Shown here piece by piece: positions 1 to 55,193 of a stretch of DNA of 64,000 nucleotides (position 1 is its first letter; every line of letters starts with the position of its first letter). Below the pieces are notes generated by a model. The model did no database searches, had not been told where the DNA came from, and saw only the letters and a list, made by a program, of their open reading frames with translations. The DNA is from Streptacidiphilus sp. P02-A3a (lineage in GTDB: Bacteria > Actinomycetota > Actinomycetes > Streptomycetales > Streptomycetaceae). The stretch covers positions 4,039,922 through 4,103,921 of the forward strand of contig NZ_CP048289.1 in assembly GCF_014084105.1 (NCBI RefSeq), read 5' to 3'. The translations under genes were made by a program, and so were the position numbers.

Positions 1-1
1 A

Positions 2-17899
<17,898 letters not shown>

Positions 17900-20900: not shown

Positions 20901-22918
20901 GGCGGCAGCGCGACCGGGAGGAGGCGGCGGTCGCCGACTGGCGCTACCGGATCTCCTGGGCGCCGCTGCGCGACCCGGAACCGGCACCGCTGCCCGGCAC
21001 CTGGCTGCTGGTCACCGGCAAGGCCGGACAGGACCAGGCCGAGGACATCGCCCGGCTGCTGACCGCGCGGGGCGGTCGGACCGTGCTGCTGCCGGTCGAC
21101 CCGGCGGAGGTCTCCCGGGAGGCGCTGGCCGCCCGCGTCGGCGCGGCGCTGACCGAGGCCACCGAGGTGGCGGGGGTGCTGTCGCTGCTGGCCCTGGACG
21201 AGTCCCCGCTGGCCGGCTGCCCCGAGGTGACCGTGGGCCTGGCCGCGACCACGGGCCTGGTCCAGGCCGTGGGCGACGCCGGGTTGGCCGCGCCGCTGTG
21301 GGTGGCCACCCAGGGCGCGGTCACGGTCGGCGCCCAGGAGGCACTGGCCCGGCCGGTCCAGGCGCAGGTGTGGGGCCTGGGCCGGGTGGTCGGCCTGGAG
21401 CAGCCCGACCGCTGGGGCGGGCTGATCGACCTGCCGCCGGTGCTGGACGAGCGGACCGGCGCGCGGCTGGCCGCGGTACTGGCCGGACAGGGCGAGGACC
21501 AGGTGGCGATCCGGTCGGCCGGGATCCTCGGCCGCCGACTGGTCCGCGCCCGGCGGCCGGTGCCGCGGCCCGACGAGTCGGCCGTGCTGGAGCGCTTCGC
21601 GCGCGGCACGGTGCTGGTCACCGGCGGAACCGGCGCCATCGGCGGGCAACTGGCCGACTGGCTGGCCGAACGCGGCACCGCCCGGGTGGCGCTGACCAGC
21701 CGCTCCGGACCGGGCGCCGCCGGGGTTCCGGCGCTGGCCGCCCGGCTGGCCGAAGCGGGCACCGAGGTCGCGGTACTGGCCGGAGACGTGGCCCAACGGG
21801 ACGAGGTGGCCGGGCTGCTCGGCCGGATCGCCGCCGGAGGACCGGCGCTGGCCGGGGTGATGCACACCGCCGGGGTGCTCGACGACGGCGTGCTCGACCG
21901 GATGACCCCGGCCCGGCTGGCCGGGGTACTCGCCCCGAAGGCCGGTGGCGCGACCCACCTCGACGAACTGACGTCCGGTCTGGACCTGGCGGCGTTCGTG
22001 CTGTTCTCCTCGGCGGCGGCCACCCTCGGCGGCGGCGGCCAGGGCAACTACGCGGCGGCCAACGCCTACCTGGACGCCCTGGCCGAGCACCGGCGCGGGC
22101 GCGGCCTGCCCGGCACCGCGCTGGCCTGGGGCCCGTGGGCCGGGGGCGGCATGGCCGACTCCGCCGAGAGCGTCCGGCAGCGGCTGGACGGCGGCCCGAT
22201 GCGCCCGATGGACCCGCGGGCGGCGCTGCGGGTCATCGGCCAGGCACTGGACGACGCCGAGACCGCGCTGGCGGTGATGGACGTCGACTGGCCGCAGATC
22301 TCGGCCGCGCTCGGCGACGTCCGGCAGGTCCCGCTGCTGCGCGAGCTGACCGACGTCCACGCGCTGCTCCCGGCCCCCGGCGCGGGCCCCGGGCCGGAGA
22401 GCGGCCCGGCCGCGGCGGCGGTGCTGGCCGAACTCGCCGGGCTGTCCGCCGAGGAGCAGGACCGCAGGCTGCGCGGGCTGGTCCGGGGCCAGGTGGCGCG
22501 GGTGCTCGGCCACACCGGCGACGACCAGGTCGGCGACCGGACCCCGCTGCGGGAACTGGGCTTCGACTCGCTCACGGCGGTGGAGTTCCGCAACACGCTG
22601 GCCGCGCTGACCGGTCTGGCCCTGCCCAGCACGCTGATCTACGACCACCCCACCACCGCCGCGCTGGCCGCCCACCTGGTCGCCGAGCTGGCGCCGCCGA
22701 CCGTCGACCCGCTCGCCCGGCTGGCCGAGGACATCGACCGGATCGAGACCGAGCTGACCGCGCTGCCCGCCGGAACCGGGCAGCGGGACCAGCTGGTGGA
22801 GCGGCTGCGGGCGGCGCTCTCCCGGCTGGGCGAGACCGGACCGCGGACCGCGGGCGCCGAGCTGGCCGAAGCCGGAGCGGACGAGCTCTACGACTTCATC
22901 GACAAGTTGGGACTGTGA
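17987..22918 (+). CDS. Modular type I polyketide synthase, one module: KS-AT(malonyl)-KR-ACP
   Basis: 1643 residues, starting at GTG with AGGAG six bases upstream. The N-terminus (about 35 residues, [18 protein letters not shown]) is a docking coiled coil. Then come KS (from 18088; Cys codon 18596-18598 in DTACSSS), AT (about 19703-20620; GHSVGE and HAFH, malonyl type), KR (about 21610-22370; [16 protein letters not shown]) and ACP (LGFDSL, about 22550). The C-terminal docking region has two dimerising helices and ends [12 protein letters not shown]. It performs the penultimate extension and leaves a hydroxyl. It lies 87 bases after the previous PKS and 35 bases before the terminal one, probably in one transcript. 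The KS-to-KR arrangement closely matches the last module of the upstream gene, suggesting duplication. Confidence 0.97.
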
Positions 22919-22953: not shown

Positions 22954-25900
22954 ATGACCGACAACAAGATGCTCGGCTACCTGAAGAAGGTCACCGCGGA
23001 GCTCCAGGACACCCGGCAGCGGCTGGACGAGGTCCGGGCCGAGGCGCGGGAGCCGATCGCCATCGTCGGCACCGCCTGCCGGTTCCCCGGCGGGGTGGAC
23101 TCCTCGGCGGCGCTGTGGCGGCTGGTGGCCGACGGCGTCGACGCGATGACCGACTTCCCGGACGACCGGGGCTGGGACCTGGAGGCGTTCGCCGCGTTCG
23201 GACCGCTGCCGGTCGGCGGCTTCCTGGACGACGCCGCCGGGTTCGACCCCGGCTTCTTCGGGATCTCGCCGCGCGAGGCCTACGCCATGGACCCGCAGCA
23301 GCGGCTGGTACTGGAGTGCTGCTACCAGGCGCTGGAGCACGCCGGTCTGGACGTCTCCCGGCTGCACGGCTCGGACACCGCCGTCTACCTGGGCACCAAC
23401 GGCCAGGACTACCCGGTGCTGCTCAGCGCCGCGGCCGACGGCGCCGACACCGAGGGCCACGTGGCGACCGGCAACATCGCCTCGGTGCTGTCCGGGCGGG
23501 TGTCCTACGCGCTCGGCCTGGAGGGCCCGGCGGTCTCGGTGGACACCGCCTGCTCCTCCTCGCTGGTCGCGCTGCACCTGGCGGCCCGGGCGCTGCGCGC
23601 CGGGGAGTGCTCGCTGGCGCTGGTCGGCGGGGTCACCGTGATGTCCACCCCGGGCGCGTTCGTGGAGTTCCAGCGGCAGGGCGGGCTCGCCTCCGACGGC
23701 CGGTGCAAGGCGTTCGCCGAGACCGCGGACGGCACCGGCTGGGGGGAGGGCGCCGGGGTGCTGGTCCTGGAACGGCTCTCGGACGCGCGGCGGCTGGGCC
23801 ACCGGGTGCTGGCCGTGGTCCGCGGCAGCGCGGTGAACTCCGACGGCGCGTCCAACGGCCTGACCGCCCCGAACGGCCCCTCGCAGCGGCGGGTGATCGC
23901 CCGGGCGCTGGCCGACGCCGGACTCAGGGCCGCCGACGTCGACGTGGTCGAGGCACACGGCACCGGCACCGCGCTGGGCGACCCGATCGAGGCGCAGGCG
24001 CTGATCGCCGGCTACGGCGGCGACCGCGCCGAACCGCTGTACCTCGGCTCGGTCAAGTCCAACATCGGGCACACCCAGGCCGCCGCCGGGGTGGCCGGGG
24101 TGCTCAAGATGGTCGAGGCGCTGCGCCACGCCGAGATCCCGCGCACGCTGCACGTCGAGCGGCGCAGCTCGCACGTGGACTGGTCGGCCGGGGCGGTGGA
24201 GCTGGCCACCGAGCACCGGGACTGGCCGCGGACCGGTCGGCCGCGCCGGGCCGGGATCTCCGCGTTCGGGATCAGCGGGACCAACGCGCACGTGATCGTG
24301 GAGCAGGCACCGGAGCCCGAGGCCGAGCCGCTCCCGGCGCGGCCGTCGGGCGTCCTGGTGCCGTGGGTGGTCTCCGGCGCCGACCCGGGCGCGGTCACCG
24401 CGAACCTGGCCCGGCTGGCCGGGGCGGACCGCGACCCGGTGGACACCGGCTGGGCGCTGGCCACCACCCGGGCGACGCTGGCCGAACGGGCGGTGCTGGT
24501 CGGCGGTTCGGCGGCGGAGCTGACCGGGGCCGCGCCGGTACGCGGCCGGGCCGCCCGGGAGCGCCGGGTCGGCGTGGTCTTCTCCGGCCAGGGGGCGCAG
24601 CGCCCGGGGATGGGCCGGGCACTGGCGGCCAGGTTCCCGGTGTTCGCGGCGGCCTTCGAGGAGGTACTGGCCGAGTTCGGCCCGGACCTGCGGGAGGCCC
24701 TCGCCGACGAGCGGGTGCACCGGACCGAGTTCGCCCAGCCCGGTCTGTTCGCCTTCGAGGTGGCCCAGTACCGGCTGCTGGAGTCCTGGGGGGTGCGCCC
24801 GGAGCTGCTGGCCGGCCACTCGATCGGCGAGCTGACCGCCGCCCACCTGGCCGGAGTGTGGTCGCTGGCGGACGCCTGCCGCCTGGTGGCGGCGCGGGCC
24901 CGGCTGATGGGTGCCCTGCCCGAGGGCGGCGCGATGGTCGCGCTGGACGGCGCCGAGGCCGACGTACGGGCGGCGCTGACCGGGGGGGTGTCGATCGCGG
25001 CGGTGAACGGCCCGAACGCGGTGGTGGTCTCCGGCGACGAGGCCGAGGTGCTGGCGATCGCCGACGCCTGGCCCGGCCGGACCAGCCGACTGCGGGTCAG
25101 CCGCGCCTTCCACTCGGCGCTGATGGACCCGATGCTGGCGGAGTTCGGCGCGGTGGCCCGCCAACTGCGCTACGCCCAGCCGACCCTGCCGGTGGTCTCC
25201 AACGTGACCGGGCTGATCGCCCAGCGGCTGACCGACCCCGCGTACTGGGTCGAGCAGGTACGCGCGGCGGTCCGGTTCGCGGACGGGGTGGCCACCGTGC
25301 TCGACGCCGGGGTGGACGCGATCGCCGAGGTGGGGCCGCGGGCGGCGCTGTCCGGCGCGGTCACCGGGATCGTCGGCGAGCGGGGGACCGTCGGCGACCG
25401 GCCGGTGCCGGTGGCGCCGCTGGGCCGGGACGAGGACGAGGTGCGCGCGGTACTGACCGGGGCCGCCCGGCTGTGGGTGTCCGGGGTGGACGTCGACTGG
25501 GCCGCCACCTTCACCGGCCTCCAGCCCCGGCGGGCGGAGCTGCCCGGCTACGCCTTCCAGCGCGAGCGGTTCTGGCCGACCGCGCCGACCGCGCGGGTGG
25601 GCGACATGTCCGCCGCCGGTCTGGCCCGCGCCGACCACCCGCTGTTGGGCGCGGTGGTGGGCCTGGCCGACGGCGGCTGGGTGCTGTCCGGGCGGCTGAG
25701 CCGCGACGCCCAGCCGTGGCTGGCCGACCACGCGGTGCTCGGCGCGGTGCTGTTCCCCGGCACCGGCTTCGTGGAACTGGCTTTGCGAGCGGGAGAGTTG
25801 GTCGGCTGCGACGGGCTGGAGGAGCTGACCCTGGCGGCCCCGCTGCTCCTGCCCGAGCGCGGCGGGGTCACCGTGCAGGTGGTGGTCCGGGACCGCGAGG

Positions 25901-28900
25901 TCCGGATCTACTCCAGCCCGGAGCAGCACGCCGGTCCCGACGGCGCCGGACCGGACGAGTGGATCCCGCACGCCACCGGCCTGCTCAGCGACAGCCGGGC
26001 TGCCGTCGACACCGACTGGGCGGCAAGTTGGCCGCCGCCGCAGGCCGAGCCGGTCGACGTCACCGGCTTCTACGAGGGCTTCGCCCTCGGCGGCTTCGAC
26101 TACGGCCCGGCATTCCGCGGCCTTGCCGCCGCCTGGCGCGGCCCGGCGGACAGCGGTGAGCTGTTCGTCGAGGTCGAGCTGCCCGAGGCGGCGGGCACGG
26201 CCGAGGACTTCGGGATGCACCCGGCGCTGCTGGACGTGGTGCTGCAGAGCATCGGCCTGCTCGCGCAGGGCGGCAGCCGGGTCCCGTTCTCCTGGGAGGG
26301 CGTGCGGCTGGCGGCCACCGGCGCGCGCCGGATCCGGGCCCGGATCCGGCTGCGCGAGGGCGGCCTGGACGGCGGGATCGGGCTGACCGTGGTCGACGCC
26401 GCCGGAGGCCCGGTGCTCAGCGCGGAGCGGGTGACCGTCCGCGAGGTGAACCGGGAGCAGCTGTCCCCGGCCGCCGGTCCCGGCGCCCGCGCGCTGCTGG
26501 AACTGGAGTGGAGCCCGCTGGAGCTGCCGGAGCCGACCGCGGCGGTCGCCGGGGCGCGCGGGGTGCTGCTCGGCGCGGACGCGTTCGGGCTGTCGGTGGC
26601 CGCGCCGCCGCCGGGCGAGCCGCCCGCGTTCGCGGTGCTGACCGTGGCCGGGGGCGACCCGGCCGAGCAGCTGGTCCGGGTACTGGGCGAGGTGCAGCGG
26701 TGGCTGGCCGACGAGGCGCTGGCCTCGGCGCGGCTGCTGGTGGTCACCCGGGACGCGGTGCTGCCGGACGCCACCGGGGCGGGCCAGGTGGACGTGGCCG
26801 GGGCGGCCGTGTGGGGCCTGGTCCGCTCGGTCGCCTCGGAGAACCCCGGACGGGTCGTCCTGGTCGACGTCGACCAGGACTCGCTGCCGCGGTGGCGGGC
26901 GGCGGTGGCCAGCGGCGCGCCGCAGGTCGCGCTGCGCGGCGGCCGGGGCTGGACCCCGGCGCTGGCCCGCGCCGCCGCCGAGCCGACCCTCCCGGACGGG
27001 GACTGGCGGGCCCACTGGTCCGACACCGGGTCCGAGGTGCGGCTGCTGCCGGCCGAGGCGGCGCGGCCGCTGGCCGCCGGGCAGGTGCGGCTGGCGGTCC
27101 GCGCCGTGGCGCTGCACCCGGAGGACCTGCGGGCCGAGCCGGGCGCGCCGCTCGGCCGCGAAGGCGCCGGCGTGGTCACCGAACTGGGCCCCGAGGTGGC
27201 CGGGTTCGCGCTCGGCGACCGGGTACGGGGGCTGTTCCCGGCGGCGTTGGGCACCTCGGCGGTGGCGGAGGCGCGGCTGCTCGCGCCGGTGCCGCCGGGC
27301 CGGTCGTTCGCCGAGGCGGCGCTGCCGATCGCGGGCGCGCTGCCGATGGCGGTGTTCGAGGCCGGACGGCTGCGGGAGGCGCTCCGCCGCCTGGCCGAAA
27401 CGCAGACCGAAGCGGAGACCGAAGCGGAGACCGAAGCGGAGACCGGGACCGGGGGCCGGGTGGTCGTCCGGCTGCCGAGGCCGGTCAGCGGGCCGGTGCT
27501 GATCACCGGCGGGACCGGCGGCCTGGGCTCGCTGGTGGCCCGGCACCTGGTGGCCGCGCACGGCGTCCGCGAACTGGTACTGCTCAGCCGCTCCGGCCGG
27601 GCGCCGGAGCTGCGGCAGGAGCTGGAGGCGGCCGGGGCCCGGGTCCGGATCGCCGCCTGCGACGTCACCGACCGGGCCGCGCTGGCCCGGGTGGTCGCCG
27701 AGGCGGGGGAGCTGGGCGCGGTGATCCACACCGCCGGGGTGCTCGACGACGCCACCGTCGAGAAGCTGACCCCGGAGCGGCTGGACCGGGTGCTGGCGCC
27801 GAAACTGCGCGGCGCGGAACTGCTCGACGAGCTGACCCGCGACCACGACCTGAGCCACTTCGTGGTGTTCTCCTCCATCTCCGGCGTGGTCGGCACCGCC
27901 GGGCAGGGCAACTACGCCGCCGCCAACACCGCGTTGGACGCGTTGGTGCTGCGGCGGCGGGCGGCCGGACACCCCGGGACCTCGCTCGCCTGGGGCCCGT
28001 GGAGCACCAGCTTCGGGATGACCAGCGGACTGTCGCAGGCCGACATCCAGCGGATGCGTCGCGGCGGGGTGGTGCCGTTCACCGAGGCCACCGGCACCGC
28101 CGCGCTGGACGCCGGGCTGCGGGCGGGCGCGGCGCTGCTGGTGCCGGTGCTGACCGCCCCGGCCGGGGCCGCGGTGGAGGTGCCGCCGATGCTGGCCGGG
28201 GTGGTCAGGCCCGCGCGCCGGGCCGCCGCCGGGGCCGACAGCGGCGTCGTCCTGGCCGAGCGGCTGCGGGCGCTGCCGCCCGAGCAGCGCGCCGAGCTGG
28301 TGACCGACCACGTCCGGGCCGAGGTGGCCACCGTCCTCGGCCACGGCTCCGCCGACCGGGTCGATCCGCAGCGCTCGTTCAGCGAGCTCGGGTTCGACTC
28401 GCTGACGGCGGTGGAGTTGCGCAACCGGCTCGGCGGGGCCGGCGGCGTCCGGCTGGCGAGCACCGTGGTGTTCGACTACCCGACGGTCACCGCGCTGGCG
28501 CAGCACCTGCTCGACCAGCTCGGACCGGACGGCGCCAGCCGGCCCGACGAGTACCGCTACCGGCTGCGGCCCGCGCCCGAGTCGCGGACCGGCGGCGACG
28601 CGGTCTCCGGGCTCGACCTCGGCGCGCTGTACCGGCAGGCGGCCGGTGCGGGCCGGGCCGAGGAGGCGATGGCACTGATCACCGGACTCGCGGCGTTCCG
28701 GCCGACGTTCTCCGACACGGCCGAACTCGCGGACCTGCCCAAGGCATTGACGGTCGCTCAAGGCACCTCCCCGGTACGGGTGTTCTGTTTGCCCTCGTTC
28801 TTCGGCCGGTCCGGTCCGCAGGAGTACGTCCGGCTGGCCGGGCGGTTCCAGGGCAGGCGGCCGATGTCGGTGCTCGCCCAACCCGGGTTCCGCCAGGGCG

Positions 28901-29427
28901 AACCGCTGCCGGAACGGCTCTCCGACCTGGTCCGGGTACAGGCGGACATCTTGAGTCAATCAATGGATCATGTGCCGGTCATCCTGCTGGGGCATTCCAG
29001 TGGTGGACTGGTCGCCCACGCCCTGGCACGGCATCTGGAGGACAACGGCAACCCTCCCGCCGGACTCGTCCTGCTCGACACGTTCCCCCCGCCGAAGAAG
29101 GGACTCACCGATTTCCACTGGTCCGACTTCCTCGATGTCGCGTTGGAGCACAACTCCCACGACGTCGACGATGACGCCTGGTTGACCGCGATGGCCCACT
29201 ACTTCCTGTTCGACTGGCAGGAAATCGGCCCATCGGACGTCCCGACCCTCCAGGTCTGGGCGAACGACTCGATCCCGGGCGCGCTGGAACCCACCAGCCA
29301 GATGTCGGCGTGGGTGTTCTCCAGCCGGTCCACGGCGGTCGAGGTGCCCGGCAACCACTTCTCGATGCTGGGGGAGCACGTGGACACCACCGCCGCCGTG
29401 GTCGAGCAGTGGCTCACCGAGCTGTGA
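22954..29427 (+). CDS. Terminal type I polyketide synthase: KS-AT-DH-[truncated ER]-KR-ACP-TE
   Basis: 2157 residues. ATG at 22954 is preceded by GGAGGA (22944-22949). An N-terminal docking coil (MLGYLKKVTAELQDTRQRL) leads to KS (Cys codon 23551-23553), AT (about 24566-25420; GHSIGE), DH (25630-26450; HAVLGAVLFP and HPALLDVVL intact), an ER remnant (27001-27485), KR (from 27490; GGTGGLGS, LDD, GNYAAANTALDAL), ACP (LGFDSL, about 28390) and thioesterase (28771-29427). The protein makes the last extension, probably to a 2,3-alkene, and releases the chain as lactone or acid. Oddities: the AT specificity motif reads RAFH instead of HAFH; the ER lacks its nucleotide-binding core and carries a 12-nt tandem repeat. 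The TE shows that this gene ends the assembly line although it lies before the loading gene on the DNA. Confidence 0.97.
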   Translation: MTDNKMLGYLKKVTAELQDTRQRLDEVRAEAREPIAIVGTACRFPGGVDSSAALWRLVADGVDAMTDFPDDRGWDLEAFAAFGPLPVGGFLDDAAGFDPGFFGISPREAYAMDPQQRLVLECCYQALEHAGLDVSRLHGSDTAVYLGTNGQDYPVLLSAAADGADTEGHVATGNIASVLSGRVSYALGLEGPAVSVDTACSSSLVALHLAARALRAGECSLALVGGVTVMSTPGAFVEFQRQGGLASDGRCKAFAETADGTGWGEGAGVLVLERLSDARRLGHRVLAVVRGSAVNSDGASNGLTAPNGPSQRRVIARALADAGLRAADVDVVEAHGTGTALGDPIEAQALIAGYGGDRAEPLYLGSVKSNIGHTQAAAGVAGVLKMVEALRHAEIPRTLHVERRSSHVDWSAGAVELATEHRDWPRTGRPRRAGISAFGISGTNAHVIVEQAPEPEAEPLPARPSGVLVPWVVSGADPGAVTANLARLAGADRDPVDTGWALATTRATLAERAVLVGGSAAELTGAAPVRGRAARERRVGVVFSGQGAQRPGMGRALAARFPVFAAAFEEVLAEFGPDLREALADERVHRTEFAQPGLFAFEVAQYRLLESWGVRPELLAGHSIGELTAAHLAGVWSLADACRLVAARARLMGALPEGGAMVALDGAEADVRAALTGGVSIAAVNGPNAVVVSGDEAEVLAIADAWPGRTSRLRVSRAFHSALMDPMLAEFGAVARQLRYAQPTLPVVSNVTGLIAQRLTDPAYWVEQVRAAVRFADGVATVLDAGVDAIAEVGPRAALSGAVTGIVGERGTVGDRPVPVAPLGRDEDEVRAVLTGAARLWVSGVDVDWAATFTGLQPRRAELPGYAFQRERFWPTAPTARVGDMSAAGLARADHPLLGAVVGLADGGWVLSGRLSRDAQPWLADHAVLGAVLFPGTGFVELALRAGELVGCDGLEELTLAAPLLLPERGGVTVQVVVRDREVRIYSSPEQHAGPDGAGPDEWIPHATGLLSDSRAAVDTDWAASWPPPQAEPVDVTGFYEGFALGGFDYGPAFRGLAAAWRGPADSGELFVEVELPEAAGTAEDFGMHPALLDVVLQSIGLLAQGGSRVPFSWEGVRLAATGARRIRARIRLREGGLDGGIGLTVVDAAGGPVLSAERVTVREVNREQLSPAAGPGARALLELEWSPLELPEPTAAVAGARGVLLGADAFGLSVAAPPPGEPPAFAVLTVAGGDPAEQLVRVLGEVQRWLADEALASARLLVVTRDAVLPDATGAGQVDVAGAAVWGLVRSVASENPGRVVLVDVDQDSLPRWRAAVASGAPQVALRGGRGWTPALARAAAEPTLPDGDWRAHWSDTGSEVRLLPAEAARPLAAGQVRLAVRAVALHPEDLRAEPGAPLGREGAGVVTELGPEVAGFALGDRVRGLFPAALGTSAVAEARLLAPVPPGRSFAEAALPIAGALPMAVFEAGRLREALRRLAETQTEAETEAETEAETGTGGRVVVRLPRPVSGPVLITGGTGGLGSLVARHLVAAHGVRELVLLSRSGRAPELRQELEAAGARVRIAACDVTDRAALARVVAEAGELGAVIHTAGVLDDATVEKLTPERLDRVLAPKLRGAELLDELTRDHDLSHFVVFSSISGVVGTAGQGNYAAANTALDALVLRRRAAGHPGTSLAWGPWSTSFGMTSGLSQADIQRMRRGGVVPFTEATGTAALDAGLRAGAALLVPVLTAPAGAAVEVPPMLAGVVRPARRAAAGADSGVVLAERLRALPPEQRAELVTDHVRAEVATVLGHGSADRVDPQRSFSELGFDSLTAVELRNRLGGAGGVRLASTVVFDYPTVTALAQHLLDQLGPDGASRPDEYRYRLRPAPESRTGGDAVSGLDLGALYRQAAGAGRAEEAMALITGLAAFRPTFSDTAELADLPKALTVAQGTSPVRVFCLPSFFGRSGPQEYVRLAGRFQGRRPMSVLAQPGFRQGEPLPERLSDLVRVQADILSQSMDHVPVILLGHSSGGLVAHALARHLEDNGNPPAGLVLLDTFPPPKKGLTDFHWSDFLDVALEHNSHDVDDDAWLTAMAHYFLFDWQEIGPSDVPTLQVWANDSIPGALEPTSQMSAWVFSSRSTAVEVPGNHFSMLGEHVDTTAAVVEQWLTEL
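27001..27485 (+). other. Vestigial enoylreductase with internal deletion
   Basis: About 160 residues against about 312 for the complete ERs elsewhere in the window. The N-terminal ER half is recognisable (PLAAGQVRLAVRAVALHPEDL, GREGAGVVTELGPEVAGF). The [13 protein letters not shown] loop and the rest of the Rossmann fold are missing. The sequence jumps from AEAALPIAGALPM to a REALRRLAE tail resembling the normal ER end. It should be catalytically dead. Confidence 0.88.
27397..27444 (+). repeat. 12-nt in-frame tandem repeat in the ER remnant
   Basis: Three exact copies of GAAGCGGAGACC (27409-27444) follow one diverged copy (27397-27408). They encode ETQT then EAET three times. The repeat sits at the junction where the ER remnant leads into the KR. 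Confidence 0.95.
28771..29427 (+). other. C-terminal type I thioesterase domain
   Basis: Alpha/beta hydrolase fold with nucleophile motif GHSSGG (Ser2015, codon 28996-28998), a probable catalytic Asp2042 in LLDTFPP and His2135 in GNHFSML. It releases the finished polyketide by cyclisation or hydrolysis; which one cannot be read from sequence. The domain's DNA is slightly less GC-biased than the modules. Confidence 0.93.
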
Positions 29428-29506: not shown

Positions 29507-30373
29507 ATGAGCACCGATCCACGTGACCACCGCCTGGCCGTCGTGGGCGGCGGGGTGATGGGGACCAACATCGCCGCCCTGGCCCTCGGCCACGGGGTGC
29601 CCGTCGTGCTGGTCGACGTCAGCGAGGCAGTGCTGGCCGAGGCGGAGCAGACCGTCGCCCTGAAGCTGCGGCACGCCCAGCTGATGGGCAAGCTGCCCGC
29701 CGGGCGCACCCCGGCGAAGCTGGTCACCAGCGTGTCGCTGGCGGACGCGGCCGACGCCACCACCGTGATCGAGGCGGTCACCGAACTCCCCGAGACCAAG
29801 GCCAAGGTGCTCAGCGAGGTCTCCCAGATCGTCAGGCCCGGGACGCTGCTGATCTCCAACACCTCGTGCATCCCGATCGACGAGATGGCGTCCTCGGTGG
29901 CCCGGCCGGAGGAGCTGGTCGGCGTCCACTTCATGAACCCGGCCTACATGATCGTCATGGTCGAGGTCATCCGTGGCCCGCGCAGCAGCGACGCCACCCT
30001 GACGGCGGTCACCGACCTGCTGGAGACCCTGGGCCGCAAGGGCCTGGTGGTGAACGACGCCCCGGGTTTCGTGATCAACCAGGTGCTGCACCCGCTGATC
30101 AACAGCGCGGCCAAGCTGGTCCAGGACGGCGTCGCCACGGTCGAGGTGGTCGACGGACTGCTCGAAGGCTGCCTCGGGCACGCGACCGGACCGCTGCGCA
30201 CCGCCGACCTCATCGGCCTGGACAACCTGGTCGACTCACTCAACGTGCTCTTCGAGCGTACCGGCGACAGCAGTTGCCGCCCCTGTGACTACCTGCTCGA
30301 CCTGGTGCGGGCGGGGAAGTTCGGCCGGAAGACCGGCGAAGGTTTCTACGACTACGGAAAGGTGGCGTCATGA
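29507..30373 (+). CDS. fkbK: 3-hydroxyacyl dehydrogenase of hydroxymalonyl-ACP synthesis (FkbK type)
   Basis: 288 residues, a normal length for this family. AAGGAG at 29494-29499 supports the ATG at 29507. The N-terminal Rossmann motif is GGGVMG (Gly14, Gly16, Gly19). His141 in GVHFMNPA matches the catalytic His of 3-hydroxyacyl-CoA dehydrogenases, and NTSCIPI and FVINQVLHP are further family motifs. In known clusters (FK520 FkbK, ansamitocin Asm13) this enzyme oxidises the glyceryl-ACP hydroxyl on the way to hydroxymalonyl-ACP. Its stop overlaps the next start (ATGA), so it is translationally coupled to the ACP gene. A primary fatty-acid dehydrogenase is possible from sequence alone, but the three partner genes decide the assignment. 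The 79-base gap before it contains several AACT-rich short repeats. Confidence 0.93.
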   Translation: MSTDPRDHRLAVVGGGVMGTNIAALALGHGVPVVLVDVSEAVLAEAEQTVALKLRHAQLMGKLPAGRTPAKLVTSVSLADAADATTVIEAVTELPETKAKVLSEVSQIVRPGTLLISNTSCIPIDEMASSVARPEELVGVHFMNPAYMIVMVEVIRGPRSSDATLTAVTDLLETLGRKGLVVNDAPGFVINQVLHPLINSAAKLVQDGVATVEVVDGLLEGCLGHATGPLRTADLIGLDNLVDSLNVLFERTGDSSCRPCDYLLDLVRAGKFGRKTGEGFYDYGKVAS

Positions 30374-30660
30374 CCGAGCAGACCGCCGCGACGAGCCCGC
30401 TGACGGCCGAGGTCATCGAGGGCGAGCTGACCAGCTACCTCAGCGAGAAGATCAAGACCGAGATCAAGCCCGAGGACGACATCTTCGCCTCCGGTCTTGC
30501 CTCGTCGATGTTCACCATGCAACTGGTCGTCCACCTTGAGTCGACCTACGACATCGCGATCATCGGTCCCGAGCTGAAGCTCGACAACTTCCGCACCGCC
30601 CAGGTGATGGCCGCACTGGTGCTGCGCCTGTCCGAGGACGGCGTGGCCGCCGATGCCTGA
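30370..30660 (+). CDS. fkbJ: Free acyl carrier protein for the hydroxymalonyl extender (FkbJ type)
   Basis: 96 residues, the size of a discrete ACP. The likely phosphopantetheine site is Ser46 in GLASSMFTMQL, where SSM replaces the usual DSL; related extender-unit ACPs also diverge from DSL. By family knowledge it carries the C3 unit loaded by FkbH while FkbK and FkbI oxidise it, and then donates hydroxymalonyl (or methoxymalonyl) to a PKS AT. It overlaps fkbK by 4 bases and fkbI by 8 bases, consistent with tight coupling. It is not a PKS-module ACP fragment, since it has its own start and lies far from any module. Confidence 0.92.
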   Translation: MTEQTAATSPLTAEVIEGELTSYLSEKIKTEIKPEDDIFASGLASSMFTMQLVVHLESTYDIAIIGPELKLDNFRTAQVMAALVLRLSEDGVAADA

Positions 30661-31774
30661 GCCGTCCGCACTCCTGGACGACGAGCGGGCCCTGGTCACC
30701 GAGCTGATCGGTGACCAGGCCGAGCAGTGGGATCTGGCCGGCGAACTGCCGATCGACCTGCTGCGCAAGCTCGGTGCCCGGGGGCTGCTCTGCGCCGAGG
30801 TCCCCAGCACCTTCGGGGGCCTCGGCCTCGACAGCGGCCGGAGCGGCGAACTCACCGCCCACGTCGGCAGTCTGTGCAGCTCCACCCGGAGCATCATGAC
30901 CTCGCACGGGATGGCCGCGTGGATGGTGTCCCGGTTCGGCGACAAGGCCCAACGCCGGGAATTCCTGGCCGAGTTGACCAGTGGTCGGCTGGCCGCGGTG
31001 GGCTTCAGCGAACCGGACGCGGGCAGCGACCTGGCCGCGATGCGGACCAGCATCCGGCGCGACGGCGACAGCGTCGTGGTCAGCGGCGAGAAGAAGTGGG
31101 TGACCGGCACCCGGTACGCCGACTACCTGCTGATCCTCGGCCGGGACGGGGACGAGGCGGGCGTGGTCGTGGTGCCCGCCACCGCCCCCGGCGTGGAGCT
31201 GGTGCCGATCGCCACTCCGGTGCTCGGCTGCCGGGCCGCCGGACACTGGAACATCCGACTGAACGACGTCCGGCTGCCGGTCGGCCACCTGCTCGGCGGC
31301 GGCGGCCAGGACCTGTCCATGCTGTTCACCACCGCCCTGTCCTACGGCCGGATCTCGGTCGCCTGGGGCTGTACCGGGATCGTCCGGGCCTGCCTGTCGG
31401 CGGCCACCCGACACGCCCGGCAGCGTGAGCAGTTCGGCAAGCCCATCGGCGAACACCAGCTGGTCGCCCGGCACCTGGCCGAACTCGTCGTCGCCGAACA
31501 GGTCGCCACCCGGGTGTGCGAGCACGCGAGCGCCGCCTGGCAGTCGCTCTCGCCGGAGATGGTGATCGCGACCGTGCTCGCCAAGCACGTCAGCGCCGGT
31601 GAGGCCGCCCGCAGCGCGGCCACCGCGGTCCAGGTCCTCGGCTCGGCCGGGGCGACCGACGGGCACGTGGTCGCCCGCGCGTACCGCGACGCCAAGCTGA
31701 TGGAGATCATCGAGGGAAGCAACGAGATCTGCCAACTCATCCTGGCCGAACACGCCCTGAAGACCACGCCCTGA
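30653..31774 (+). CDS. fkbI: Acyl-CoA dehydrogenase-like flavoenzyme of hydroxymalonyl-ACP synthesis (FkbI type)
   Basis: 373 residues, typical of the acyl-CoA dehydrogenase superfamily. GFSEPDAGSD near residue 120 is the flavin/substrate loop, and IIEGSNEI near the C-terminus holds the likely catalytic base Glu354. In methoxymalonyl pathways this enzyme follows FkbK in oxidising the ACP-bound C3 unit to hydroxymalonyl-ACP. The start overlaps fkbJ by 8 bases. The C-terminus (HALKTTP) is encoded by the first copy of a 14-nt tandem repeat that continues past the stop, so the present end of the gene may have been shaped by repeat expansion. A general fatty-acid acyl-CoA dehydrogenase is the alternative; the gene context argues against it. 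Confidence 0.93.
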   Translation: MPEPSALLDDERALVTELIGDQAEQWDLAGELPIDLLRKLGARGLLCAEVPSTFGGLGLDSGRSGELTAHVGSLCSSTRSIMTSHGMAAWMVSRFGDKAQRREFLAELTSGRLAAVGFSEPDAGSDLAAMRTSIRRDGDSVVVSGEKKWVTGTRYADYLLILGRDGDEAGVVVVPATAPGVELVPIATPVLGCRAAGHWNIRLNDVRLPVGHLLGGGGQDLSMLFTTALSYGRISVAWGCTGIVRACLSAATRHARQREQFGKPIGEHQLVARHLAELVVAEQVATRVCEHASAAWQSLSPEMVIATVLAKHVSAGEAARSAATAVQVLGSAGATDGHVVARAYRDAKLMEIIEGSNEICQLILAEHALKTTP

Positions 31775-31817
31775 AGACCACGCCCTGAAGACCACGCCCT
31801 GAAGACCACGCGCTGAC
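31751..31817 (+). repeat. 14-nt tandem repeat spanning the fkbI stop codon
   Basis: CACGCCCTGAAGAC occurs four times (31751, 31765, 31779, 31793), followed by a partial, mutated fifth copy from 31807. Each copy contains TGA. Because 14 is not a multiple of three, successive stops fall in different frames. Confidence 0.95.
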
Positions 31818-31868
31818 CCAGCGCCGTTCCCGGTCCATCGAATTCCGGTCCCGTACGGAGGCCCTCGC

Positions 31869-32951
31869 ATGCCCGAAAAGCCCACTCTCGTCAAATGCCT
31901 GGTCTGGGACCTCGACAACACCCTCTGGCAGGGCACCCTGCTGGAGGACGCCGAGGTCCGGCTGCCGGACGAGGTCCGCGCCGTCATCGTGGAACTCGAC
32001 TCCCGGGGCATCCTGCAGTCCGTTGCCAGCAAGAACGACCACGACCTGGCCTGGAAGCGGCTGGAGGAGCTCGGCGTGGCCGAGTACTTCCTGGTGCCGC
32101 AGATCAGTTGGGGCCGCAAGTCCGACGCGGTGACCACGATCGCGAAGGAGTTGCAGTTCGCGCCCACCACCATCGCCTTCGTCGACGACACGCCCACCGA
32201 ACGGGCCGAGGTCGCCTACCACGTGCCCGAGGTCCGCTGCTACACCGAGCAGGACGTGCTGACGCTGGTCGACCGGCCCGAGTTCAGCCCGGAGACGGTC
32301 ACCGAGGACGCCCGCCGCCGCCGCGAGATGTACCAGGCCAACGCCCGCCGCACGGTGGAGAAGGACTCCTTCAACGGCCCGGACGAGGACTTCCTGCGCT
32401 CGCTCGACCTGGTCATGGAGATCAAGCGGGCCGACCAGGAGGACCTCACCCGGGTCGAGGAACTGACGCTGCGCACCAGCCAGATGAACGCCACCGGGGT
32501 GCACTACTCGGACTCCGCGCTGCGCGGACTGCTGGCCGATCCCGACCACGAGGTGCTGACCATCACCCTCACCGACCGGTTCGGGCCGCACGGCGCGGTC
32601 GGCGTGCTGCTGCTGGAACGCCACCCCGGCGTCTGGCACCTCAAGCTGCTCGCCACCTCCTGCCGGGTGGTCACCTTCGGCGCCGGGACCGTGCTGCTGA
32701 ACTGGCTGGTCGACCAGGCCGCCCGGGCCGGGGTGCACCTCGCCGCCGACTTCCGGCCGACCGACCGCAACCGGATGATGGAGATCGCCTACCGCTTCGC
32801 CGGGTTCACCCAGGACGCCTGCGACTGCCTGAACGGGATCGCCGGCAACACCGACGGCGACGACATCCAGTGCCTGCACCTGGTCACCGCCCGGCGCGAG
32901 GGCCCGACCACGATGCGGCTGGTCTCGCCCGATCTCACCCCGGCCAGTTGA
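31869..32951 (+). CDS. fkbH: HAD-family glyceryl-ACP synthase/phosphatase (FkbH type)
   Basis: 360 residues. GGAGG at 31857-31861 is seven bases before the ATG. The N-terminal HAD motif WDLDNTLW has Asp14 and Asp16; the C-terminal half has a GNAT-like region (MNATGVHYSD, FGAGTVLLNWLVDQA, FRPTDRNRMMEIAYRF), as in FkbH proteins. By family knowledge it captures 1,3-bisphosphoglycerate, dephosphorylates it and loads a glyceryl group on the free ACP. FkbH homologues with only an ACP serve tetronate formation; here fkbK and fkbI indicate the hydroxymalonyl route. The order K-J-I-H matches ansamitocin asm13-asm16, but the methyltransferase that would follow is missing and a PKS loading gene begins 107 bases later. 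Confidence 0.94.
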   Translation: MPEKPTLVKCLVWDLDNTLWQGTLLEDAEVRLPDEVRAVIVELDSRGILQSVASKNDHDLAWKRLEELGVAEYFLVPQISWGRKSDAVTTIAKELQFAPTTIAFVDDTPTERAEVAYHVPEVRCYTEQDVLTLVDRPEFSPETVTEDARRRREMYQANARRTVEKDSFNGPDEDFLRSLDLVMEIKRADQEDLTRVEELTLRTSQMNATGVHYSDSALRGLLADPDHEVLTITLTDRFGPHGAVGVLLLERHPGVWHLKLLATSCRVVTFGAGTVLLNWLVDQAARAGVHLAADFRPTDRNRMMEIAYRFAGFTQDACDCLNGIAGNTDGDDIQCLHLVTARREGPTTMRLVSPDLTPAS

Positions 32952-32988
32952 ACAGCGGCCAGTTGAACAGTGGCCAGCTGAACTGAGT
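32944..32988 (+). repeat. 15-nt tandem repeat spanning the fkbH stop codon
   Basis: Three near-copies of CCAGTTGAACAGCGG (the third altered) begin inside the last codons of fkbH and run into the gap before the loading PKS. Each copy repeats the TGA stop in the same frame. Confidence 0.88.
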
Positions 32989-33048
32989 GGCGTCACGATC
33001 CAGAACGACCGCCACGGCGGACCGTCATCCGCTTCGGCCAGGGAATGT

Positions 33049-33052
33049 GGAG
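33049..33052 (+). promoter_or_regulatory. Ribosome binding site choosing ATG 33059 for the loading PKS
   Basis: GGAG lies six bases upstream of ATG 33059. An in-frame GTG at 32987 would add 24 residues with no family resemblance and has no Shine-Dalgarno sequence, so 33059 is preferred. Confidence 0.75.
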
Positions 33053-33058
33053 CACACC

Positions 33059-36000
33059 ATGAGCGAGTCCGATCACCTGCCACTCGCCGTCGTCGGCATG
33101 GCCTGCCGCTACCCCGGCGGAGTCCGGTCGCCGGAGGACCTGTGGCAGGTCGCGGTCACCGGGCGCGAGGTACTGTCGCCCTTCCCCGGTGACCGCGGCT
33201 GGAACCTCGACTCCCTGCACGACGACGACCCCGGCCACCCGGCGACCAGCTACGTCGACCGGGGCGGCTTCCTGGACGACGTCGCGGGCTTCGACCCCGG
33301 CTTCTTCGGGATCTCGCCGCGTGAGGCGCTGGCCATGGACCCGCAGCAGCGGCAGCTGCTGGAGGTCGCCTGGGAGGCGGTGGAGCGGGCCGGACTCGAC
33401 CCGCTCAGCCTGCGCGGCAGCCGCACCGGGGTCTTCGTCGGCGGCGAGCCCCGCGAGTACGGCCCGCGCCTGTACCAGGCACCGGACGGCATCGAGGCGC
33501 ACCTGCTCACCGGCACCACGACCAGCGTGATGTCCGGCCGGATCGCCTACTCCCTGGGACTGCACGGCCCGGCCCTGACCGTCGACACCTCCGCCTCCAG
33601 CTCCCTGGTCGCGCTGCACCTCGCCGCCCAGGCGCTGCGCCACGGCGAGTGCTCGCTGGCGCTGGCGGGCGGGGTGTCGGTGATGGCCACCCCGGGCAAC
33701 TTCGTCGCCTTCAGCCGACTGCGGGGCCTGGCCCCGGACGGCCGCTGCAAGGTGTTCTCCGCCGACGCCGACGGCACCGCCTGGTCCGAGGGCGTCGGCC
33801 TGCTCGTCCTGGAACGGCTGTCCGACGCGCTGCGCAACGGCCACCAGGTGCTCGCCGTGGTGCGCGGCACCGCGATCAACTCCGACGGCGCCAGCGACGG
33901 CCTCACCGCGCCCAACGGCGCGGCCCAGGCCGCCGTCATCGCACAGGCGCTCGCCAACAGCGGGCTGACCAGCGACGACATCGACGCGGTGGAGGCCCAC
34001 GGCACTGGCACCCCGCTCGGGGACCGCACCGAGGCCCGCGCCCTGGCCACCGGCTACGGCAGCGGACGGCCGACCGAACGCCCGCTGCTGATCGGCTCGG
34101 TGAAGTCCAACATCGGACACACCCAGGCCGCCGCCGGGGTGGCCGGAGTGATCAAGACGGTCATGGCGCTGCGGCACGGCCTGCTTCCGGCCTCGCTCCA
34201 CATCGGCGACCCCAACCCGCACGTCGACTGGGCCGCCTCCGGACTGCGGCTGCTGACCGACGCCCAGCCGTGGCCCGAGACCGGCCGGGCCCGCCGGGCC
34301 GGGGTGTCGTCCTTCGGACTCAGCGGCACCAACGCCCACGCGGTGCTGGAACAGGCCCCCGCCACGGACACCGCCGCCGATACCGCCGCACCGGCGGACG
34401 GGCCGACCGCCTGGCTGCTCTCCGGCCGCTCCGCGACCGCGCTGGCCGGCCAGGCCGCCCGCCTGGCCGCCCGGGTCGCGGCCGCACCCGAGGCCGCCCA
34501 CCTGGCGGACCTCGCCTGGTCGCTGGCCACCACCCGGACCGCGTTCGACCACCGCGCGGTCATCGTCGGCACCGGCCCGGACGCACTGACTGCGGGCCTG
34601 GACGCGCTGGCCACCGGCCGCCCCGCGGCCGGAGTGGTCACCGGCACCGCCGAACCCGCCGCCGCGCCCGGCCGCAAGGTCGTGTTCGTCTTCCCCGGCC
34701 AGGGCACCCAGTGGCTGGCCATGGGCCGCGAACTGGCCGAGACGTCACCGGTGTTCGCTGCCCGGCTGGCCGAGTGCGAGCAGGCGCTGGCGCCGTACCT
34801 GGACTGGAACCTGCACGAGGTGCTCACCGGCGCCGACGGCGCACCCGGCCTCGACCGGGACGACGTGGTCCAGCCCGCCCTGTTCGCGATGATGGTCTCG
34901 CTGGCCGCCGTCTGGCAGGCCGCCGGGGTCGCCCCCACCGCCGTGGTCGGCCACAGCCAGGGCGAACTCGCGGCGGCCTGCGTCGCCGGGATCCTCACCC
35001 TGGAGGACGCGGCCAAGGCGACCGCGCTGCGCAGCCGCCTGGTGCGGACCCTGGCCGGGTGCGGCGGCATGCTCTCGATCGCCGAGCCGTCCGAGGCCGT
35101 CGCCGCCCGCCTGGAGCCGTACCCGGACCAGGCCGTGATCGGTGTCGTCAACAGCCCCGAGGCCACCGTCATCAGCGGCGACCACGCCGTGCTGGAGCGG
35201 ATCGCCGCCGACTGCGAGCGCGACGGCGTCCGGACCAGGACCGTTCCGATCGACTACGCCTCGCACAGCCCGAGGATGGACGCGGTCCGCGAGCAACTGC
35301 TCGACGCCCTCGGCGGGATCGTCCCCGCCGCCGGTGCCGTGGCGATGGTCTCCGCGGTCACCGGCGAGTTCATCGACGGCACCGAGGTCGACGCCGAGTA
35401 CTGGCACGCCAACCTGCGTCGGCCGGTCCGGTTCGCGCAGGCCGTCGGCACGCTGGACCGGGCCGGGTACGACGTCTTCGTCGAGGTCTCCCCGCATCCG
35501 GTGCTGACCGGCGCCATCAACGCCACGCTGGAGCACACCCGGCGCCAGGCCGAGGCCGACACCGGCGCTGCCGCTGACACCGGCAGCGCGCTGCTGCGCT
35601 CGGCCCCGGTGGTCACCGGAACGCTCCGCCGGGACGCGGGCGGCCAGGACCGGATCCTCACCGCGCTGGCCGAGGTCCACGTCCAGGGAGTACCGGTGGA
35701 CTGGGCGGCGGTGCTGCCTGCCGCCCGCCGTGTCGACCTGCCCACTTACGCCTTCGAGCACCAGCGCTTCTGGCTCGACTCCGGCAGCGGCCCGGTCGCC
35801 GCCGCCGGACCGCTGGCACAGGCGTCCAGTACCGCTGCCGTCGGTGCGGGCGGCCTGCGCGAGCGGATCGCCGGCCGACCGGCCGCGGAGCAGGTCCAGC
35901 TGCTGCTGGAGCTGATCCAGGCGCACGCCGCCGCCGTCCTCGGCGAGCCCACGCCCGAGGCCGTGCAGCCGGGCCGCACCTTCAAGGAGACCGGCTTCGA

Positions 36001-39000
36001 CTCGCTGGCCGGGGTGGAACTGCGCACCCGGCTGAACACCGCGACCGGGCTGCGGCTGCCGACCACACTGATCTTCGACTACCCGACTCCGGCCGCGCTC
36101 ACCGGCTTCGTCCGGGCCGAACTGCTCGGCGCCGCCGACGCCCCGACCGCTCCGGCGGTCACCGCCGCGCCCGCCGACGAACCGATCGCGATCGTCGCCA
36201 TGAGCTGCCGCCTCCCCGGCGGCGTGGACGACCCGGAGAGCCTGTGGGAGCTGCTGGCCGCCGGTGGGGACGCGATCGGGGACGTCCCGACCGACCGTGG
36301 CTGGGACCTCGGCGACGACGCCACCGCCGCACTGCGCGGCGGATACCTCTCCCACGCCGCCGACTTCGACCCGGCGTTCTTCGGGATCTCGCCGCGTGAG
36401 GCGCTGGCGATGGACCCGCAGCAGCGGCTGCTGCTGGAAACCTCGTGGGAGGTGCTGGAACGCGCCGGGATCGACGTCGAGCGGCTGCGCGGCTCGGCGA
36501 CCGGCGTCTTCATCGGCGCCGCCGCCTCCGGCTACGGCGACGGCGGACCCCGGGAACTGGAGGGGCACCTGCAGACCGGGCGCGCCACCAGCGTGCTCTC
36601 CGGCCGGGTCGCCTACACCTTCGGCCTCGAAGGCCCGGCGGTCACCGTCGACACCGCCTGCTCCTCCTCCCTGGTGGCGCTGCACCTGGCCGCGCAGTCC
36701 CTGCGCGGCGGGGAGTGCACACTGGCGCTCGCCGGTGGCGTCACCGTGCACGCCACCACCTCCTGGCTGACCTGGTTCACCCGGCAGCAGGGGCTGGCCT
36801 CGGACGGCCGCTGCAAGGCCTTCTCCGCCGACGCCGACGGCATGGGCATGGCCGAGGGCGCGGGCGTGGTCCTGCTGGAGCGGCTCTCGGACGCCCGTCG
36901 CAACGGGCACCGGGTGCTTGCCGTGGTGGCCGGGACAGCGGTGAACCAGGACGGCGCGTCCAACGGCCTGACCGCCCCGAACGGCCCCTCCCAGCAGCGC
37001 GTCATCCGGGCCGCCCTGGCCAGCGCCCGGCTCGACGCCGCCGACGTGGACGCGGTCGAGGCCCACGGCACCGGAACCATGCTCGGTGACCCGATCGAGG
37101 CCCAGGCCCTGCTCGCCACCTACGGACAACAGCGCGACACCGAGCGGCCGTTGTGGCTCGGCACGGTGAAGTCCAACATCGGGCACACCCAGTGGGCGGC
37201 CGGAGCCGCCGGGATCATCAAGATGGTGCTGGCACTGCAACACGCCCAGCTCCCGCGCACCCTGCACGCCGACGCGCCCTCCCCGCACGTGGACTGGTCC
37301 TCCGGCGCGGTCCGTCTCCTGACCGAGTCGACGCCCTGGCCGGAGACCGGCCGTCCGCGCCGGGCCGGGGTCTCCGCGTTCGGGATCTCCGGTACCAATG
37401 CCCATGTGATTCTGGAGCAGGCGCCGGTGGAGGTTTCTGCGGTTGTGGGTGGGGGTGTGGAGTCGCCGGTGGTGCCGTGGTTGTTGTCGGCGCGGGATGG
37501 TTCGGGGTTGGTGGCGCAGGCGGGTCGGTTGCGTGAGTTCTTGTTGGCGCGGCCCGAGTTGGGTCCGGTGGATGTGGGTTGGTCGCTCGCCACGACCCGT
37601 ACCGTCCTGCCCGAGCGGGCGGTGCTGGTGGGTGCCGGTCGGGATGAACTCCTTTCTCAGCTTGGGGAGTTGTCGGGGGCCTCGGTGGTTGGTTCGGTTG
37701 GTCGGGTTGGGTTTGTGTTTGCTGGTCAGGGTGCGCAGCGGGTGGGGATGGGGCGGGGGTTGTATGCGGCGTATCCGGTGTTCGCGGAGGCGTTTGATGC
37801 GGTGTGTGCGGGGTTGGAGGAGCATCTTGGTGGTTCGGTGAGTGCGGTGGTGGATGGTGGTGTTGGTTTGGATGACACGGTGTGGGCGCAGGCGGGGTTG
37901 TTTGCGGTGGAGGTGGCGTTGTTTCGGTTGTTGGAGTCGTGGGGTGTGGTTCCGGGGGTGGTGGCTGGTCATTCGATTGGTGAGTTGGCGGCTGCGTTTG
38001 TGGCGGGGGTGTGGTCGCTTTCGGATGCGTGTGCGGTGGTGGCGGCGCGTGGGCGGTTGATGCAGGGGTTGCCGTTGGGTGGGGCGATGTTGTCGGTGGG
38101 GGCGGGTGAGGGTGTGGTGCGTGAGGTGGTGGCGGGGTTTGAGGGTGTGGGTGTGGCGGCGGTGAATGGTGTGGATGCGGTGGTGGTGTCGGGGGTGGAG
38201 TTGGGGGTTGCGGGTGTGGAGGCGGTGTTTGTGGGGCGTGGGGTGCGGGTGCGGCGGTTGCGGGTGTCGCATGCGTTTCATTCGGTGTTGATGGAGCCGA
38301 TGTTGGCGGAGTTTGCGGGGGTGTTGGGGTCGGTGTCGTTTGGTCGGCCGGTGATTCCGTTGGTGTCGACGTTGACGGGTGGGTTGGTGGTTGATGAGTT
38401 GTTGGATCCGGGGTATTGGGTGCGGCAGGTGCGTGAGGCGGTGCGGTTTGGTGATGCGGTGGGGGTGTTGCGTGGGGGTGGTGTGCGTACGTTTGTGGAG
38501 TTGGGTCCGGATGGGGTGTTGTCGGGGTTGGGTTCGGTGGGTGCTGGTGAGGGTGAGGTGTGGTTGCCGTTGTTGCGGCGGGGTCGTGATGAGGTGGGGT
38601 CGTTGGTTGCGGCGGTGGGTGAGTTGGGTGCGCGTGGTGGTGAGGTGGATTGGTCGCGGTTCTTCGCGGGGACCGGTGCGCGGCGGGTGGACCTGCCCAC
38701 GTACGCCTTCACCCGCCAGCGCTACTGGCTGGACGCCGCCGTCGGCGGGCAGCCCCGGGACATCGGGCTGACCGCGTCCGGGCATCCGCTGCTCGGCACC
38801 GTGGTCGAACTGCCCGCGAGCGGCGGCCTGGTGCTCACCGGACGGCTGTCGCTGGCCGCCCAGCCGTGGCTCGCCGACCACGTCGTCGCCGGGCAGATCG
38901 TCGTCCCCGGGGCCGCCCTGGTCGAGATGGCTATCCGGGCCGGGGACGAGACCGGCTCCGCCCGCTTGGCCGAGCTGGTCATCCAGGTGCCGATGGTGCT

Positions 39001-55153: not shown

Positions 55154-55193
55154 AGAACTTAAGGGCTTGAGAGCCTAGGGAAAGGTGCGTCGC

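Follow-up and report, generated by a model that had tools for sequence, protein, structure and literature searches.

Within a 64,000-nucleotide stretch of the Streptacidiphilus sp. P02-A3a genome (hereafter the window, positions 4039922-4103921 of a 9.33-Mb single-contig genome), four adjacent genes of the fkbK, fkbJ, fkbI and fkbH types lie embedded in a large modular polyketide synthase (PKS) cluster. In all likelihood, these genes make a hydroxymalonyl unit on an acyl carrier protein (ACP) with no methylation, and two acyltransferase (AT) domains of the 33-module PKS insert this unit, leaving free alpha-hydroxyls on the chain. The identities of the genes, the failure to find the O-methyltransferase gene fkbG in the cluster, the placement of the set in a clade of sets without a neighbouring FkbG, and the two AT signatures with their recurrence in other genomes were read directly from the sequence. 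With considerably less assurance, we somewhat favour a broader reading in which the set represents a separate, monophyletic actinobacterial FkbH/FkbI hydroxymalonyl lineage that lost FkbG or never had it and became fitted to the unmethylated intermediate, such that the branch alone would predict a free hydroxyl. The member in the window would then feed two dedicated ATs of the 33-module PKS to yield a chain of about C67 bearing two triols, from a cluster present in at least five genera.

The four frames are intact, lie on the forward strand, and carry conserved motifs; counterparts with 73-89% identity occur in four other genera (loci L065, L067, L068, and L069). The first (29507..30373, 288 aa) encodes an FkbK-type 3-hydroxyacyl dehydrogenase with PF02737 3HCDH_N (1e-46) and PF00725 3HCDH (2.4e-26) domains, 86-89% identical to its counterparts in L065-L068. 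The second (30370..30660, 96 aa) encodes an FkbJ-type discrete ACP that aligns with the ACPs of related sets, including the Ser of its SSMF motif in L065-L071; a Pfam scan of this protein returned no match, and its NCBIfam ACP matches were weak and below the cut-off (best 5.2e-7). The third (30653..31774, 373 aa) is an FkbI-type acyl-CoA dehydrogenase with N, M, and C domains (Pfam), whose best PDB relative is FkbI itself (1r2j; E 4.4e-141), and the fourth (31869..32951, 360 aa) is an FkbH-like glyceryl transferase/HAD protein that matches TIGR01686 with 351.6 bits (3.7e-105; cut-off 146.65). Together, these domain, PDB, and NCBIfam matches and the ACP alignment confirmed the proposal of the initial annotation that the four homologues, found side by side at 29507-32951, follow the order of methoxymalonyl sets, which we take to be the asm13-16 order of the ansamitocin set. 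The same annotation had described the FkbG/Asm17-type methyltransferase as missing and a PKS start as occupying its place, and this description was accurate: the frame of PKS gene A10 opens 35 bases past fkbH, where fkbG/asm17 would sit. Because this frame begins at 32987 (GTG; the likelier true start is 33047-33059), no space is left for a methyltransferase between fkbH and A10. The layout is not an assembly accident, since the order K-J-I-H followed by a PKS gene recurs in relatives. No FkbG/Asm17 of the kind that defines a methoxymalonyl-ACP set was found in the cluster, and the composition seen, FkbH, an ACP, and two dehydrogenases with no O-methyltransferase near by, is that of a hydroxymalonyl set.

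The initial annotation had advised a search of the flanking DNA for an FkbG-type methyltransferase, and none was found: the FkbG of a second set in the same genome had no match better than E 1.7 in the 303,901 bases around the cluster, and an FkbG just outside the window was ruled out over these 304 kb. A Pfam scan of 19 flanking proteins, a subset of the flanking open reading frames (ORFs), gave no methyltransferase, with four of these proteins matching no Pfam family, and PKS modules A1.2, A1.3, and A2.1 likewise showed no methyltransferase family. The genome does hold one real FkbG, intact at C1:5440750-5441412, 1.37 Mb from the cluster and adjacent to the second K-J-I-H set (C1:5440750-5445281) with 65-67% identity in I and H to the set in the window. 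The annotation had predicted a free alpha-hydroxyl provided that no methyltransferase existed elsewhere; none was found in the cluster, but this fkbG homologue does exist in the genome outside it. By eye, the neighbours of the second set resemble genes for a SARP regulator, a type II thioesterase, and an acyltransferase-like protein, and the bafilomycin gene order, as given in PMC3679948, matches them save for one extra gene in between; because of this correspondence, the second set probably belongs to a plecomacrolide-type cluster. The second set with its FkbG and bafilomycin-type neighbourhood (C1:5433504-5470999) was also seen in genomes G012 and G013. Other FkbG matches at E<=1e-8 in the genome were limited to two genes, with 43% and 32% identity, more than 0.5 Mb from the cluster.

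We then asked how FkbG is distributed around related sets. A first census, built from two peptide patterns with the best 80 of 169 loci kept and therefore biased, placed FkbG within the fetched flanks of 68 of these 80 loci and not in those of the other 12; "no neighbouring FkbG" here means none in the fetched stretch, which covers at most about 10 kb on each side and less on short contigs (L070, L071, and L212). Whole-genome searches of the 12 recovered FkbG elsewhere (67-75% identity) in five (L085, L092, L093, L111, and L118), located 11-12 kb from FkbI in L092 (S. scabiei) and L093 and in other complete sets in L118, and a 10-kb gap alone was accordingly rejected as proof of absence. Kineosporia (L069) has an FkbG of 62% identity in a second complete K-J-I-H-G set. 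In the remaining six (L065-L068, L070, and L071), the best FkbG match reached 36-51%, with absence being weaker in L070 and L071, which are metagenome-assembled genomes (MAGs) with short contigs. The neighbours of FkbG-like matches were viewed for two of these six, and the matches of Thermocatellispora (45%) and Herbidospora (51%) were rejected as FkbG, their neighbours looking by eye like serA, leuB, and ilvE. The same set and PKS context occurs in S. carbonis, whose best FkbG-like match in the assembly is 45%; in Thermocatellispora tengchongensis, where the best such match (45%) lies beside serA- and leuB-like genes; and in Pseudonocardia spinosispora, with a best match of 36% in the assembly. 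Each of 14 Streptacidiphilus genomes has an FkbG-like match of 42-47%. A second census of 394 Streptomycetaceae genomes, in which FkbG was scored as neighbouring if a match at E<=1e-60 lay on the same contig no more than 20 kb away, yielded 63 FkbI loci in 57 genomes; 21 of the 63 had no such match, some of them lying on short contigs or having FkbG farther off, and 11 of the 57 genomes had no FkbG match at this threshold anywhere. Sets without a neighbouring FkbG are hence not the rarity that had been supposed.

Phylogenetic analysis placed the window within a distinct group. In the first FkbI tree (83 rows, holding all of the best 80 loci), the window and seven other sets without a neighbouring FkbG formed one clade (100/97), with the other five such rows standing apart. 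The later trees comprised 45 of the best 80 loci, hand-picked for spread, three others, and 18 (FkbI) or 23 (FkbH) later-fetched loci; the later fetch covered 17 of the 21 FkbG-less Streptomycetaceae loci and one FkbG-containing control, and L111, L218, and L219, having no usable FkbH, were dropped from the FkbH tree. In the second FkbI tree (66 rows), seven of the 17 fetched loci joined the window clade, extending it to 15 rows, all without a neighbouring FkbG (100/98), and the other 10 (L216-L219, L221, L222, and L224-L227) fell elsewhere. The FkbH tree (68 rows), whose bootstrap is not fully settled, recovered the same members plus L229, giving 16 rows, again all without a neighbouring FkbG (100/97). 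Because FkbG-less loci fall both inside the window clade and outside it, the lack of a neighbouring FkbG must have arisen more than once, with the window clade as the best-defined case. Outside this clade, six loci (L216, L217, L221, L222, L243, and L246) have K-J-I-H without a neighbouring FkbG and apparent non-ribosomal peptide synthetase (NRPS) and PKS genes beside it; these are candidate zwittermicin-like systems in Streptomycetaceae.

The AT domains point to where the unit may enter the chain. Two of the 33 ATs, A1.2 (second module of gene A1) and A2.1 (first module of gene A2), read VMRW/VLRW...DFVAHS; the methylmalonyl-type ATs of this PKS read RXR...YASH, and the malonyl-type ATs read HAFH, with RAFH in A9.1. 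YAPH replaces YASH in three methylmalonyl-type ATs (A3.1, A6.2, and A7.1). According to PMC4207774, which cites Haydock for this, MXW ahead of the YASH box goes with extenders carried on an ACP, and RXR with those carried on CoA. By motif, the hydrophobic residues of A1.2 and A2.1 at the RXR place mark both as candidate ATs for an ACP-borne extender such as hydroxymalonyl. Searching eight genomes with the A1.2 AT revealed two domains of at least 70% identity, 9-10 kb apart, in each of seven (our strain, G013, Thermocatellispora, S. carbonis, P. spinosispora, Herbidospora, and Kineosporia), the next best match being 63%; S. scabiei, the eighth, had no domain at this threshold. The motif was kept as [ML]RW...FVAHS in all 12 domains read out of the 14 paired ones.

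From these elements we infer each chemical step, the module order, the starter, and the free hydroxyls of the product. FkbH would load glycerate from 1,3-bisphosphoglycerate onto the discrete ACP (FkbJ), FkbK would convert glyceryl-ACP to 2-hydroxy-3-oxopropionyl-ACP, and FkbI would carry out a second oxidation to hydroxymalonyl-ACP, in which the terminal carbon is now a carboxylate; the methyltransferase step that could follow would be absent. As far as the point of methylation, the tetromadurin and bafilomycin routes are described with the same glyceryl loading and oxidation (PMC7489565, PMC3679948). In methoxymalonyl routes, methylation may come before oxidation, as PMC7489565 indicates; if so, the dehydrogenases of the window clade must accept a substrate that has not been methylated, and their separate branch would be in keeping with this. 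The A1.2 and A2.1 ATs would then take the hydroxymalonyl unit from the ACP and insert it at extension modules 8 and 10, respectively, if the line runs A10-A11-A1 to A9. This would leave free hydroxyls at the alpha carbons C50 (module 8) and C46 (module 10), counted from the carboxyl end. Because ketoreductase (KR) motifs are present in modules 8-11, active KRs would be expected to add hydroxyls at C51, C49, C47, and C45. The predicted outcome is two triols, C45-C46-C47 and C49-C50-C51, separated by one CH2, in a chain of C67 given a propionyl starter. We found no description of such a product in the open-access papers searched. PKS cluster 15 of S. carbonis, for which PMC7601586 lists 30% of the genes as similar to geldanamycin, is perhaps this cluster.

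Several observations speak against this account. The strain has its own intact second-set FkbG, which could act in trans on the ACP of the window, and FkbG lies elsewhere in the genome for three clade members (the window, Kineosporia L069, and L223); across clade and cluster family together, the same holds for three members besides our strain (G013, Kineosporia, and G384/L223). S. carbonis, Thermocatellispora, and P. spinosispora, the relatives in which no FkbG was found, have draft assemblies. The genome-wide O-methyltransferase search covered the FkbG type. MXW also occurs beside FkbG-containing sets (L080 and L084: LRW...FAAH) and marks ACP-borne extenders generally, so it does not separate hydroxy from methoxy units; tried alone as a discriminator, the AT motif gave no separation. 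Among the seven later-fetched clade loci, of which 6-20 kb was seen per locus, an MRW/MXW AT lay in the fetched stretch of L215 and L223 only; the ATs in that of L211, L213, L214, and L220 were ordinary, and L212 showed none. Finally, neither the butyrolactol nor the zwittermicin FkbH/FkbI was recognised among the loci found, leaving butyrolactol FkbI/FkbH unplaced on the trees.

The foremost rival, which we regard as unlikely, is that the distant FkbG methylates the ACP-bound unit in trans, giving methoxymalonyl-ACP and two methoxy groups in the product. The intact gene beside the second K-J-I-H set would allow this, and the same double arrangement exists in G013 and Kineosporia rhizophila. 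However, S. carbonis, Thermocatellispora, and P. spinosispora keep the set with no FkbG in their assemblies, the FkbI and FkbH of the window lineage form a clade of their own apart from FkbG-containing sets, and the distant FkbG is accounted for by its own bafilomycin-type cluster (from the by-eye neighbours and the order in PMC3679948). A decidedly improbable alternative would have the alpha-hydroxyls installed first and then methylated, once the chain is released, by an O-methyltransferase encoded away from the cluster. The genome does offer further methyltransferase-family genes (seven PF13578 and four PF01596 matches, partly the same genes), whereas the 19 scanned flanking proteins include none, and the FkbG-type search found, besides the second-set FkbG, only the two remote matches noted above. 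It is more doubtful still that the set makes another unit, either aminomalonyl-ACP or glyceryl-ACP for a tetronate. FkbI-like dehydrogenases are known to serve aminomalonyl formation. FkbH-like proteins likewise serve tetronates, as set out in PMC7489565; against both, the hydroxymalonyl route has its full complement of four genes, none of which encodes a seryl-activating enzyme, and a thioesterase closes the PKS. An adenylation-PCP protein is encoded upstream of A1. That the set is decaying or silent, with no ACP-borne unit in the product, is the least credible option: numerous breaks, perhaps sequencing errors, interrupt the frames around the set in G013, but the four frames here are intact and conserved across genera, and the two special ATs are retained along with them. 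Three results favour hydroxymalonyl-ACP over methoxymalonyl-ACP: the three relatives that share the cluster and show no FkbG in their draft genomes, the well-supported FkbI and FkbH clades, and the two MXW ATs that recur in seven genomes.

Gene calling over 304 kb delineated 11 PKS genes from 3937698 to 4113291 (175 kb), with 33 ketosynthase (KS) modules by motif scan. Those reaching into the window are all on the forward strand. Ahead of the set lie A7 (1..17899, beginning outside the window at -3010; four modules), A8 (17987..22918; one module), and A9 (22954..29427; one module and a C-terminal thioesterase), which ends 79 bases before fkbK. Beyond the set, A10 (32987..55153) encodes a loading module followed by three malonyl-type modules with dehydratase (DH), enoylreductase (ER), and KR domains, and A11 (55185..64000, continuing to 73370 outside the window) encodes three modules. 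Modules A1.2, A1.3, and A2.1 contain KS, AT, KR, and ACP families, and post-AT module lengths throughout fit KR, DH-KR, or DH-ER-KR with no further domain, A9.1 additionally having the thioesterase. Because A10 has no docking helix at its N-terminus and its loading KS reads VDTSASSS, it is likely the loading gene; the probable order of the line is then A10-A11-A1 to A9, giving 32 extension modules. In this loading KS (within 32987-36000), Ala occupies the position at which the active-site Cys, or the Gln of a KSQ domain, would normally stand; the motif is kept in five relatives (L065-L069), the Herbidospora version being VDTSASGS, and the domain is possibly a decarboxylating "KSA" starter domain. 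Near-identical AT pairs (A10.2/A10.3, A1.3/A7.4, and A3.1/A7.1) suggest recent module duplication or gene conversion. The adenylation-PCP protein is encoded at C1:3933835-3937377 (L013), just upstream of A1, the first PKS gene; downstream of the PKS are a thioesterase, an alpha/beta hydrolase, a P450 match, two ABC transporters, and a histidine kinase. Two ABC-transporter-like genes and a small ORF (reading SREITDDESAIL or similar) were seen beside the sets of the MAGs L070 and L071 and also downstream of our cluster (79647-83881, beyond the window; L010).

Hydroxymalonyl-ACP puts a free, reactive hydroxyl on a polyketide, an outcome wanted by engineers for which few sources are characterised. 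The kind of pathway is already known from zwittermicin and butyrolactol A; the novelty lies in the hosts, in a large PKS containing two candidate cognate ATs, and in a well-supported FkbH/FkbI lineage without a neighbouring FkbG, of which we found no account in the open-access papers searched. The lineage combined with its candidate cognate ATs (two per line in seven genomes) offers a testable sequence rule for telling hydroxy from methoxy extenders, and it points to an undescribed large polyketide in cultured strains, among them S. carbonis NBRC 100919 and Thermocatellispora tengchongensis DSM 45615.

Among known systems, the ansamitocin (asm13-17), FK520 (fkbGHIJK), bafilomycin, and tetromadurin (mad11-15) sets share fkbK, J, I, and H homologues with the window. 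Those of ansamitocin and FK520 carry an O-methyltransferase (Asm17 and FkbG, respectively). Unlike the set in the window, those of bafilomycin and tetromadurin are described with an FkbG/Mad15-type O-methyltransferase (PMC3679948, PMC7489565). The second set of our strain has the same K-J-I-H genes as the window but differs in having FkbG beside it and a bafilomycin-type neighbourhood. Zwittermicin A (ZmaN, ZmaD, ZmaG, and ZmaE) resembles the window in forming hydroxymalonyl-ACP without methylation and in the hydrophobic AT residues at the RXR place, whereas it comes from a Bacillus PKS/NRPS; its ZmaA-AT (4qbu), with GYSFG, GAAH, and MCM motifs according to PMC4207774, is only distantly similar (4.2e-35) to the ATs of the window, which read GHSQG, FVAH, and MRW/LRW. 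The initial annotation had named zwittermicin as the known case, which overlooked butyrolactol A of Streptomyces sp. TP-A0882: PMC5355916 reports four homologues of the zwittermicin enzymes for it, places no O-methyltransferase near the cluster, uses 13C feeding to trace its hydroxylated carbons C-1 to C-8 back to hydroxymalonyl units, and names Bacillus, Xenorhabdus, Paenibacillus, and Streptomyces as genera that employ the unit. A search aimed at finding the butyrolactol genes in 392 genomes of G390's genus gave 55 matches, and five of the 19 contexts read had no FkbG in the stretch; in plasmids, the search returned three records for FkbI and none for the AT, and the butyrolactol genes were not recognised among these loci. 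The butyrolactol A cluster is like the window in the order 3-hydroxybutyryl-CoA dehydrogenase (HBDH)-ACP-acyl-CoA dehydrogenase (ACAD)-FkbH after a PKS gene, again with no O-methyltransferase near by. Compared by gene order, the two differ in that butyrolactol A, a butyrolactone polyol, incorporates four units and has a thioesterase and a major facilitator superfamily (MFS) transporter after FkbH, whereas the window has a loading PKS gene in that position, a 33-module PKS, and two candidate units.

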